From positions 124,001-188,000 of the forward strand of contig NZ_JAQQPZ010000003.1 in NCBI RefSeq assembly GCF_028750675.1: a DNA stretch of 64,000 nt, written 5' to 3'. Below, one piece after another: positions 59,413-62,248 of the stretch. The position numbers were made by a program, and so were the translations under genes. This stretch comes from Shewanella metallivivens. GTDB lineage: Bacteria; Pseudomonadota; Gammaproteobacteria; Enterobacterales; Shewanellaceae. The first letter of the stretch is position 1, and each line of letters begins with the position of its first letter. The notes below the pieces were generated by a model that made no database searches, had not been told where the DNA came from, and saw nothing but the letters and a program-made list of their open reading frames with translations.

Positions 59413-61167
59413 TTAACTCTGTGGGTGTTTCATTGACTCGTTGTAGCACACAACACAATTGCGGCCGTTATGCTTAGCACAATATAAGGCTAAATCAGCG
59501 CGGTGAATAAGGGGGTCAAGACTTAAGTCGTGTTTGTCGGCACAGCTTATGCCACAGCTCACCGTAATCGAAAAATCATGACCAGAGAAACGCGTATTGA
59601 TAGCCTCTACCTCTGCTCTTAAGCGTTCGGCAAAGTCTGCTGCTGATTTAAGATCTTGTTTGGGCATAAATATCGCAAACTCCTCACCGCCCATGCGGGT
59701 AAATACATCATTAGGCCTGAGTAGCGACTCAATCACACTGGTAAACTTTTTTAATGCCCAGTCACCTGTAGCATGACCAAATTGGTCATTAATGTTTTTA
59801 AATAAATCCAAATCCATCAACAGCACAGAAAAAGGCTCGGCTACCGCTTGAGTTTGAATAAATTCGTTTTCAGCAAGCTCCTGGCCAGTACGGCGATTAT
59901 AAATACCAGTTAACCCATCACGCTGTGCTTGCTTCATAAATTGATTGCGTTGCAGCCAGGCTGAAATCAGCAGTAATAATAAACCAACTGACACACCAAC
60001 GAGCAATGTCGAAAACATAATTGACGAGCTTTTGTCTTTTATAAACAGATCTTTTTGCTTCATCAACAACTCGTGGTCTTGCATCAGACTGTTGTTTTCT
60101 CGGTTTTTCTCTACGCTGTCAAAACGAGCCATCTGATAAGCGTTTTCTTTCACTTTTTGCTCGTTTAATATCTGTAAACTCAGTGCATTAGCAACCACTT
60201 GGTACTGATAAGCTTTATCAAACTGACCACGTTTTCCTGCAACCAACGATAAGGTTTCATTAGCACGCTTTTTTACTAACAGGTTATTGGGTGCTATCGG
60301 CTTGTCATTGACTTTATTAGCATACTGCTCGGCTTCTTCAAAACGGTTTAAATAGAAGTAGGTCATGCCTAAAAACGAGTGAACTTCGTTAATCTCAACT
60401 TCAAATTTAAACTTTTTGTAGTTGGCTAACGCGTTTAATAATAATGATTCGGCTTTATCATAGAGGCTGTTTTCATATGCAACAATTGCCTGCCCTTTTG
60501 TGGACATTACGGCAATTAACGGGAAACCATGTTCACTACAGTACTGTTCTGTGTCGGTAAATAAATTTGAAGCCAAATCGAATTGTTTTGTGCGTAGATT
60601 CGCCACGGCATAATACAACATCGAATAACACTGGTTTTTAGGATTTTCACCTTGATTTAAATTCAGGGCCAATTGCGATATTCGCAACATTTCATCATAA
60701 GCTTCGAGCTCAAGATACACATTTAATAGCCGGTTGTAGGTCGCAATTTTAATGCTGTTATCTTGATAATTATCAATACGAGCTAAATTGGTTTCTAACA
60801 AAGTAAAGGCGCGTTTGTAGTCTTTTAAGCCAATACTGGTTGTTACCCGATATAAATATATACGAGTGATGATATCTTCAGTCGGATTAAAAGTTAACGC
60901 GGTGTCTAAAGCGTCATCTGCAGCAGCATACTCGGCTAAATAGATATGTTTTAAGCTAAGCAGCATGTACAAACGGCTTTTTTGTATCATCGACAGCTGG
61001 TCTTGACGCGCTAACATTGAATTTAATTTGGCGATGGCACTTTGAGTGTCAGTGTGCATAAAGTTTTCAACAATATCGAGCTCATCATCCATTTCATTGG
61101 CGAGCACAATTCCTGAGCTGTATAATATGAACAGCACAGTGATAACGACTTTAATGAACACTTGCAT
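59413..61167 (-). CDS. TPR-GGDEF diguanylate cyclase following the borosin locus
   Basis: From ATG 61167 (MQVFIKVVITVLFILYSSGI) the protein has 584 residues; the longer frame to 61200 begins with TTG. A signal peptide or TM (to about 24) is followed by a large extracytoplasmic TPR-type helical domain (about 30-360; KSRLYMLLSLKHIYLAEYAA, CYSMLYYAVANLRTKQFDLA), TM2 at about 385-405 (FSTLLVGVSVGLLLLLISAW), and a GGDEF domain with intact RMGGEEFAIFMP and SVLLMDLDLFKNINDQFGHA motifs, so it should make c-di-GMP. An RxxD-type inhibitory site was not evident. It starts only 10 nt after the sonA stop, suggesting co-transcription with the borosin genes. Confidence 0.9.
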   Translation of the reverse strand: MQVFIKVVITVLFILYSSGIVLANEMDDELDIVENFMHTDTQSAIAKLNSMLARQDQLSMIQKSRLYMLLSLKHIYLAEYAAADDALDTALTFNPTEDIITRIYLYRVTTSIGLKDYKRAFTLLETNLARIDNYQDNSIKIATYNRLLNVYLELEAYDEMLRISQLALNLNQGENPKNQCYSMLYYAVANLRTKQFDLASNLFTDTEQYCSEHGFPLIAVMSTKGQAIVAYENSLYDKAESLLLNALANYKKFKFEVEINEVHSFLGMTYFYLNRFEEAEQYANKVNDKPIAPNNLLVKKRANETLSLVAGKRGQFDKAYQYQVVANALSLQILNEQKVKENAYQMARFDSVEKNRENNSLMQDHELLMKQKDLFIKDKSSSIMFSTLLVGVSVGLLLLLISAWLQRNQFMKQAQRDGLTGIYNRRTGQELAENEFIQTQAVAEPFSVLLMDLDLFKNINDQFGHATGDWALKKFTSVIESLLRPNDVFTRMGGEEFAIFMPKQDLKSAADFAERLRAEVEAINTRFSGHDFSITVSCGISCADKHDLSLDPLIHRADLALYCAKHNGRNCVVCYNESMKHPQS

Positions 61168-61177
61168 CAACAAGGTA

Positions 61178-61390
61178 TTACGGCTTAGGTGTTGTAACAA
61201 TCTGGAACATTTTCATCTCTTCGTCACCCGCTAATTGGCGGATACGCGCTATGTCACCCGACATTACCGCTTCAATTTCTTCTTCGGTAATGCCATTTGC
61301 TTGCATCACCCCAATAGGATCGTGTTGATACGCTTCTAATAATTCTGCATCTGTCCCTAACTGAGTAAAAAATTGACTTAAATTCGACAT
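61178..61390 (-). CDS. sonA: SonA-like split-borosin precursor peptide
   Basis: This 70-residue protein closely resembles SonA of Shewanella oneidensis, the precursor of a discrete-substrate borosin. Residues 1-55 form the borosin-binding domain leader (MSNLSQFFTQLGTDAELLEA, YQHDPIGVMQANGITEEEIE, AVMSGDIARIRQLAGD), very like SonA's. The core tail is EEMKMFQIVTTPKP. SonA is N-methylated at residues 63 and 65 as I recall; the equivalent residues here are Gln 63 and Val 65, with Ile 64 between. The leader is conserved but the core differs, as expected for RiPP precursors. AAGGG lies 7 nt before the ATG. It follows the sonM-like gene by 30 bp. A Nif11-type leader was considered and is less likely because the methylase partner is adjacent. 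Confidence 0.85.
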   Translation of the reverse strand: MSNLSQFFTQLGTDAELLEAYQHDPIGVMQANGITEEEIEAVMSGDIARIRQLAGDEEMKMFQIVTTPKP

Positions 61391-61420
61391 ATCGTGCCCT
61401 TAGTGTTGTAGAAGTATTCT

Positions 61421-62248
61421 CTAACCAAGATCCATTTCACTGATGCCTAACTTTGCAAGCATGGCAGGGTTTAATGCTAATGCTTGCTGAGGCGGGATCA
61501 ATAATGTGCTGATGGTCGTTAACCGAGCATCAGGTAAATCAGCCAAGGCAATATGCTCTACTCTTGGCGATTGCACTGCTAAGTTTGCAGCTTCATATAT
61601 TATCACTTGATGATCAATAGGATACCACTGTGATAAATGTTCAACTAAAATATGTAATCTCTGCTTGGTTGTGGAAAATTGTGTCAATGTATGTTCGCCC
61701 GCGAGCGCTATTTGCCACAACACTACGTGAGTACAAGGGTTGGGGACATGTTGGTACAACATAAACTGGGTGGCTTCATAGCTTTGATAACCACTATTGC
61801 CGGGATCGATACCTAAATCCGCCCATAAACACGCCTCAGCTGAAACACCTGCAAGCATTTTAGCGCTAAAACCTAGCTGTTTAGCTTGTGCTATTGCTAA
61901 ATGTGATACGCAAGAAAATACCCCCGGATGGCCGTACAAAGCACATACCACCCTTTTATTTGCTCGTACCTCATCTAACATAGCATCAACCATCTGCTGA
62001 TAGGTGTTGCGACGGTTTTTTATTTCCCCTGCTTGTGCGTAATATCCTTGTAGCGAGCGCACATCAGCATTCAAGGTTGACAACCATCTATCGGCGAACC
62101 CATCGGGCACCAATGAAAAAACCACGTCAGCAAGCTCAATATAACTCATGGCTAACTGGCCTACTTGCCCAGCAAGTTGTACTCCAGTCCCCACACACAC
62201 TAGCTGACCTTGTCCTTTTACGGCAGTTAGCTGCAAGTTACACCTCAA
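61421..62248 (-). CDS. sonM: SonM-like borosin alpha-N-methyltransferase
   Basis: This ~275-residue protein has the tetrapyrrole-methylase fold used by borosin backbone N-methyltransferases. It matches my memory of Shewanella SonM: LVCVGTGVQLAGQVGQLAMS, YIELADVVFSLVPDGFADRW, RNTYQQMVDAMLDEV, ALYGHPGVFSCVSHLAIAQA, GVSAEACLWADLGIDPGNSG, WQIALAGEHTLTQFS and ending LAKLGISEMDLG. It iteratively methylates backbone amides of the precursor encoded 30 bp downstream. No ATG exists in a reasonable position: the longest frame starts at TTG 62248 (AGGA 7 nt before it), with another TTG at 62236 preceded by GAGG. The start is therefore uncertain and non-AUG. Confidence 0.88.
   Translation of the reverse strand: MRCNLQLTAVKGQGQLVCVGTGVQLAGQVGQLAMSYIELADVVFSLVPDGFADRWLSTLNADVRSLQGYYAQAGEIKNRRNTYQQMVDAMLDEVRANKRVVCALYGHPGVFSCVSHLAIAQAKQLGFSAKMLAGVSAEACLWADLGIDPGNSGYQSYEATQFMLYQHVPNPCTHVVLWQIALAGEHTLTQFSTTKQRLHILVEHLSQWYPIDHQVIIYEAANLAVQSPRVEHIALADLPDARLTTISTLLIPPQQALALNPAMLAKLGISEMDLG

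Follow-up and report, generated by a model that had tools for sequence, protein, structure and literature searches.

What does a bacterium do with a backbone-N-methylated peptide whose genes adjoin no protease, cyclase or exporter? The question is raised by a split borosin locus in the window analysed here, a 64,000-nucleotide stretch of the Shewanella metallivivens genome (contig NZ_JAQQPZ010000003.1, positions 124,001 to 188,000). A sequence-only reading of the window had picked out a methyltransferase gene and a precursor gene, and had described the pair as sitting alone, with nothing informative nearby. It is correct that no protease, cyclase or exporter is seen next to the pair. The pair is not alone, however: 10 bases beyond sonA, on the same strand, begins a gene whose product combines a TPR domain, a membrane helix and a GGDEF domain, and this gene is conserved at that position. 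This third gene, the best functional clue found, had been overlooked because it encodes a signalling protein rather than an enzyme of biosynthesis. With a conserved sensor as partner, "function unknown" becomes a direct question: does the methylated tail of SonA act on c-di-GMP by way of the adjoining gene?

Layout of the locus

The three genes lie in order on the minus strand at 62248-61421 (275 aa), 61390-61178 (70 aa) and 61167-59413 (584 aa), with intergenic gaps of 30 bases (sonM to sonA) and 10 bases (sonA to the TPR-GGDEF gene). A divergent bamE, identified by Pfam, is located upstream of sonM; the two genes farther downstream we take to be aceB and aceA. The host genome (4.6 Mb) contains one SonM match. 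The features of the locus are:

61421..62248, minus strand: sonM orthologue, backbone alpha-N-methyltransferase (phmmer to SonM; Pfam TP_methylase; invariant Y70/R79/Y83/Y105)
61178..61390, minus strand: sonA-type precursor, 70 aa (phmmer to SonA; BBD-like precursor in 107/107 orthologous loci)
61226..61390, minus strand: leader (borosin binding domain), residues 1-55 (ungapped alignment to SonA)
61181..61225, minus strand: variable C-terminal core, residues 56-70 (alignment, column entropy)
59413..61167, minus strand: third gene, predicted exported TPR - membrane helix - GGDEF protein, 584 aa (Pfam, conserved downstream position, AlphaFold2)
60232..61047, minus strand: TPR helices, residues 41-312, proposed peptide-binding domain (model; core divergence follows the domain)
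60628-60630, minus strand: C180 codon (invariant TPR column)
60538-60540, minus strand: C210 codon (invariant TPR column)
59965..60021, minus strand: predicted membrane helix, residues 383-401 (hydropathy)
59458..59928, minus strand: GGDEF domain (GGEEF, RxxD I-site), residues 414-570 (Pfam and sequence)

The start of sonM is TTG 62248 or TTG 62236, and each is preceded by a Shine-Dalgarno-like stretch, as judged by eye. For the TPR-GGDEF gene the start was set by choice at ATG 61167; an alternative upstream TTG at 61200 falls inside sonA. Promoter-like sites number 7 (10.7 expected) and terminator-like sites 4 (3.7 expected).

A split borosin of a known kind

The 275-aa protein matches crystallised SonM of S. 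oneidensis over query residues 14-275 (phmmer, E 6.7e-124) and, more weakly, the fungal enzyme OphMA (E about 1e-45). The tetrapyrrole-methylase fold that had been read from the bare sequence is borne out by Pfam (TP_methylase, PF00590, 62 bits; cut-off 27.8). Its residues Y70, R79, Y83 and Y105 correspond to Y58, R67, Y71 and Y93 of SonM, the residues mutated in the 2021 study of that enzyme (PMC8429565), and are invariant across 20 diverse relatives. The 70-aa protein in turn matches crystallised SonA (phmmer, E about 2e-17). Homology to both proteins, retention of the active-site residues and a BBD-type precursor support the earlier assignment of the pair, on sequence comparison, as a split borosin of the SonM/SonA type. 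The further statement that the leader almost matches that of SonA needs tempering: it is a SonA-type leader, but identity amounts to about 47% over 66 residues, as measured between the window precursor and that of locus L057 (residues 1-66), the latter being identical to PDB SonA over residues 1-65. The pair is of a known kind, since type IV split borosins were published, from S. oneidensis, in 2021, and methylation has been shown for that SonM/SonA pair (PMC8429565). SonM matches occur in 112 of the 129 genomes of the genus, and some genomes have two or three.

Other names for these proteins were tried and rejected. The fold family PF00590 would allow a cobalamin or tetrapyrrole methylase, yet CobI/CbiL scores 30.7 bits against a cut-off of 163.25; YabN scores 38.3 bits against 525. 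LigA, the name that SonA bears in the PDB, reaches 19.3 bits in Pfam, against a gathering score of 25.3.

All 107 orthologous loci have a BBD-like small gene (by a profile built from 14 of the 107 precursor rows), and six of them have more than one. Mean column entropy across the 107 loci is 1.44 bits for the conserved leader and 2.48 bits for the variable tail, where a pattern can be discerned: Tyr or Phe at position 62 (76/107), Ile or Val at position 65 (98/107) and a polar end after that. The methylated positions of SonA are Leu63 and Ile65 (PMC8429565), with which Gln63 and Val65 of the window precursor align. Ile64 and Val65 fit a hydrophobic core; position 63 is Gln in the window (10/107 loci). 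No export signal is discernible by eye in either SonA sequence. Two BBD-type precursor genes per locus, with tails that are different or broken, are seen at L051, L060, L087, L096 and L116; these loci look as if cores duplicate and diverge.

A TPR sensor joined to a GGDEF domain

The 584-aa product of the third gene scores above cut-off for Pfam GGDEF (143.5 bits) and TPR_12 (30.5 bits). Hydropathy places hydrophobic stretches at residues 3-21 and 383-401, on either side of the TPR domain, which is predicted to face the periplasm. In the AlphaFold2 model (mean pLDDT 89.9) the TPR helices (41-312) are followed by a long helix (316-415) and the GGDEF domain. That domain has the GGEEF motif and the RxxD I-site; among 171 linked relatives of at least 560 aa, GG[DE]EF is kept in 163 and RxxD in 129. 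By its intact GGDEF domain the third protein would be a diguanylate cyclase, presumably one that synthesises c-di-GMP.

Across 32 TPR regions, down to 14% identity with that of the window, no column is invariant other than C180 and C210. In the model they lie in neighbouring helices (176-192 and 196-212), which makes a C180-C210 disulfide plausible. Among TPR-GGDEF proteins from borosin sites C180 is present in 175/175 and C210 in 174/175, a count that dropped frames shorter than 450 aa (5/107 first-site and 2/13 second-site loci), took named loci only from L213 on with frames of at least 500 aa, and includes one protein (L173) whose locus has lost sonM; among 17 hand-picked TPR-GGDEF proteins unlinked to borosin sites, the corresponding counts are 1/17 and 0/17. 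The pair of cysteines was considered as a universal mark of the borosin link and rejected in that role: orphan members carry it and kinase-type sensors are without it. Eleven strong-match TPR-GGDEF proteins have no SonM in their stretch (L299-L307, L173), nine with both cysteines and two with one; three TPR-only orphans have both, and none of 18 kinase-type sensors has the pair. The cysteine pair marks a subfamily, not the borosin link as such. The orphan TPR-GGDEF proteins themselves might be trans-acting receptors or relics.

In a Foldseek search with the full model, the 50 top matches listed are all GGDEF-containing entries. The TPR-only model (pLDDT 91.7) resembles, at similar levels, Rap with bound pheromone (TM 0.64, normalised by query length), APPBP2 (0.65), NprR (0.61) and LGN (up to 0.59). 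The TPR fold being common, this similarity of models is only compatible with peptide binding and does not prove it.

Linkage of the sensor to sonM in Shewanella

A match to the TPR-GGDEF protein lies downstream at 107 of 107 orthologous loci and at 13 of 13 second-site loci, the latter chosen from a longer list and representing a second SonM type encoded at another, unlinked place; bamE, aceB and aceA have matches in 0/13 of these second-site stretches. The TPR-GGDEF frame extends to at least 450 aa in 102/107 orthologous and 11/13 second-site loci. The remaining frames are interrupted or run off the end of a contig, L146 having a GGDEF piece only. At L057, the locus with the leader of PDB SonA, the TPR-GGDEF gene directly follows sonA. 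L142 has no separate precursor frame. At L135-L137 sonM is short or split and the sensor is retained, and in genome G053 the SonM match is absent at the site, sonM and sonA having been lost and the sensor kept (L173). Two uncultured Shewanella have two or three tandem TPR-GGDEF genes downstream of sonM (L214, 7172-12783; L216, 7293-11214).

For the 17 genomes without SonM (one of them 52% complete), the matches listed for the sensor begin at residue 130 or beyond, so that none of those listed is full-length. The bamE locus was recovered in 18 of 20 genomes lacking SonM at this site. Seven of the 18 have aceB at a distance of about 0.85-1.3 kb from bamE and no match to any of the three genes in the interval, the other stretches being too short for the same judgement. 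On a three-gene tree covering 107 SonM-bearing loci and 17 that lack it, both traits change six times; only three independent pairs support joint loss (p 0.25), and the test is underpowered.

The second-site loci consist of a SonM paralogue, a small precursor gene and a TPR-GGDEF gene. A match to the pepsin-like protease family PF00026 is found in 36 of the 129 genomes, and in 35 of these 36 it lies within about 2.5 kb of the second-site sonM (coordinates compared by eye); the genome of the window has no PF00026 match. Work by Lee in 2024 is said to have found that shewasin A cleaves a borosin precursor. The shewasin-type protease near the second-site sonM (at loci such as L138-L150) is a candidate for releasing the second-site precursor.

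Linkage beyond Shewanella: a constant sensor and an exchangeable output

Among the 80 named loci that are the best of 554, which span several genera, 76 have a GGDEF frame, and the four that do not are contigs of at most 7.6 kb. Gene order varies: in Kangiella, Undibacterium and a Burkholderiaceae MAG the TPR-GGDEF gene lies on the upstream side of sonM, and two or three such genes are found at some loci of Rheinheimera, Colwellia and Neiella. Within the order (394 genomes), SonM is found in 95 genomes (143 matches) and the TPR region in 109 (at E 1e-15). When the 150 TPR matches listed (down to about E 1e-30) are set against these, 132 lie within 5 kb of SonM and 18 do not; conversely, 110 of the 143 SonM matches have a listed TPR match within 5 kb. 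Inspection of the other 33 raises the number adjoining a TPR protein to 138/143, the additional TPR matches being weaker (E about 1e-9 to 1e-26) and possibly reflecting generic TPR similarity. They comprise L309 and L310 (three matches), 18/20 of L311-L330 and seven of eight among L349-L356; the misses are L146 (a fragment), L308 (fused), L312 and L353 (contig ends) and L315 (none). A phylum sample beyond the order yielded four more genomes with SonM, and three of three loci sampled within the class but outside the order have TPR-GGDEF genes.

The output half of the sensor is not always GGDEF. Pfam identifies HisKA, HATPase and receiver domains at L309, and HisKA and HATPase at L310; judged by length and C-terminal ends, more of the TPR proteins are probably of the kinase type. 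At Kangiella-type loci the TPR proteins, each about 350-370 aa long with a signal-like N-terminus, lack GGDEF and are encoded in tandem groups of two to four, and at four loci (L328, L330, L355 and L356) inspection finds a TPR protein with a C-terminal hydrophobic end. The TPR domain is the part that stays constant; the output half may be GGDEF or a histidine kinase, or may be missing. Tandem TPR proteins are located at L291 (2595-5804), L293 (917-5721), L295 (2800-4980) and L296 (1106-3332), the last without sonM in its stretch. A SonM-type domain also occurs in larger proteins, at L308 (600-2516, 638 aa) and, in another class, at L360 (1940-5464, 1174 aa); these fused proteins are perhaps another borosin architecture. 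No TPR gene was seen in the fetched stretches of L308, L315 and L360.

The core diverges with the TPR domain

The co-divergence of core and sensor was followed in those orthologous loci whose genes are complete (97 of 107, the other 10 being dropped), by Mantel tests, whose values shared ancestry can inflate. The rank correlation with core distance is 0.455 for the TPR domain, 0.141 for the GGDEF domain of the same protein and 0.105 for SonM. With BamE, RnfH and RatA as a species proxy, the partial correlation of core and TPR domain is 0.384, and it is 0.391 when SonM and GGDEF are controlled for as well (0/500 permutations in each case). The partial correlation of the core with GGDEF falls to 0.022 (132/500 permutations), and that with SonM, given the species proxy, is -0.122. 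Along the sensor, stretches in residues 50-374 give partial correlations of 0.28-0.41, highest at 160-194; values are 0.15-0.19 over the first 74 residues and do not exceed 0.10 for stretches starting at residue 460 or later. The first 74 residues are the more divergent and correlate less, and divergence alone therefore does not explain the correlation of core with TPR domain. The effect is not confined to these two segments, since leader divergence, too, tracks the TPR domain (partial 0.547) and core divergence tracks the leader (partial 0.282). Comparison across the loci establishes, at the level of sequence, a single conserved module of genes in which the core and the TPR domain diverge together.

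A proposed signalling module and its alternatives

Because a membrane sensor gene adjoins the methyltransferase-precursor pair here and in nearly all relatives examined, the modified peptides are suggested to be signals. SonM would methylate amides of the SonA backbone close to the C-terminus; the tail so modified would be cut off and reach the periplasm or the outside; there the N-methylated tail would serve as a ligand bound by the TPR domain of the third protein; and binding would switch the cytoplasmic GGDEF domain, changing c-di-GMP. The sensors of this kind found in relatives would drive a histidine kinase, and with it a phosphorelay, or have no output domain. For the window we infer methylation of SonA, its release and export, binding, the direction of the switch and c-di-GMP synthesis. 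Release and export are without a candidate gene at this locus, since no protease or exporter is seen beside the pair and the genome has no PF00026 match. The orphan sensors (18 of the 150 TPR matches listed), genome G053, L135-L137 and the broken sensor frames count against the module, as do the lack of a TPR gene in the stretches of L308, L315 and L360, the missing cysteine pair of the kinase-type sensors, whose weak TPR matches may be generic, and the co-divergence of the leader. We nevertheless judge a three-gene signalling module, with a methylated peptide ligand, a TPR sensor and a c-di-GMP or phosphorelay output, to be somewhat more probable than all other readings of the locus taken together.

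Those other readings each account for some of the evidence. The borosin might be an effector (antimicrobial, metal-binding or surface-active), with a sensor that detects something else or protects, regulating the pathway or the lifestyle. RiPPs are often effectors, sensor kinases and regulators are common in biosynthetic clusters, and orphan sensors without sonM exist; however, no immunity or export gene is seen beside the pair in the window, nor in the neighbour maps of relatives (read for SonM, TPR and GGDEF only), and the core follows the TPR domain, not SonM, which leaves this reading rather unlikely. The lack of a PF00026-kind processing protease in the genome would instead suit an uncut methylated SonA that acts inside the cell or as a partner, the TPR protein then serving as its chaperone or as a partner in docking or secretion, and not as a receptor of a free peptide. 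Protein tails are common ligands of TPR domains, the degron-binding APPBP2 is among the fold matches, and the leader, too, follows the TPR domain. Against this, the TPR domain is predicted to be extracytoplasmic whereas the SonA sequences are without an export signal by eye, and we consider the reading improbable.

Information might also flow in the reverse direction, with the sensor reading an envelope or other cue and its output governing borosin production, the peptide not acting on the sensor. The close same-strand spacing would fit joint expression, but co-divergence of core and TPR domain is not something this arrangement predicts, and it is very unlikely. That an unrelated GGDEF gene has come to lie here by chance is hardly credible: GGDEF genes are abundant (55 matches in the window's genome), yet the same neighbour is found at two unlinked sites, in several genera with other gene orders and at all three of the loci sampled outside the order but in the class. 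The three-gene signalling module remains the preferred reading. It can be generalized: in Proteobacteria, type IV borosins would be peptide signals with an N-methylated backbone, each paired with an extracytoplasmic TPR receptor of its own whose output half is exchangeable, and would represent a class of Gram-negative peptide signalling based on N-methylation. We regard this wider claim as evenly balanced between true and false. If the methylated SonA tail does change c-di-GMP by way of the adjoining gene, then N-methylation of the backbone is a means by which Gram-negative bacteria make peptide signals, and the pairs of core and TPR domain would constitute a large natural set for reading receptor specificity.

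Relation to known systems

The 2021 paper on the S. oneidensis pair (PMC8429565) gives no product for any type IV borosin, and its main text makes no mention of GGDEF, diguanylate or TPR. It is the only paper matched by the tags SO1478-SO1480, the SO1480 tag itself giving no match. A figure legend of a 2024 paper (PMC11395268) lists "GGDEF" among borosin architectures, so that the GGDEF neighbour has at least been drawn before. No match was found for borosin together with "diguanylate cyclase", and among the papers listed none, as far as the listings show, names a TPR sensor or signalling role for borosins. The pair is known; the finding is at the level of the module (a constant TPR sensor, a swappable output and co-divergence of core and sensor), and it is strong as linkage.

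Among the closest known systems is SonM/SonA of S. oneidensis (PMC8429565), which like the window has a separate methyltransferase and BBD precursor in the same order with the same active-site residues. The window core differs from that of SonA in having Gln63 for the methylated Leu63 and in its Pro-Lys-Pro end. The second-site Shewanella loci share with the window the combination of SonM, small precursor and TPR-GGDEF protein and, unlike it, have a PF00026 protease close by. In omphalotin-type OphMA the methyltransferase is homologous, but the core is fused to it in one chain whereas the window genes are separate. The Rap and NprR (RRNPP) receptors share the TPR superhelix (TM 0.61-0.64), although unrelated TPR proteins score alike, and in the Rap and NprR systems peptide and receptor are likewise encoded together. 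RRNPP receptors are cytoplasmic, a feature that the predicted topology does not give to the window sensor: by prediction its TPR domain is extracytoplasmic, with a membrane helix connecting it to GGDEF.
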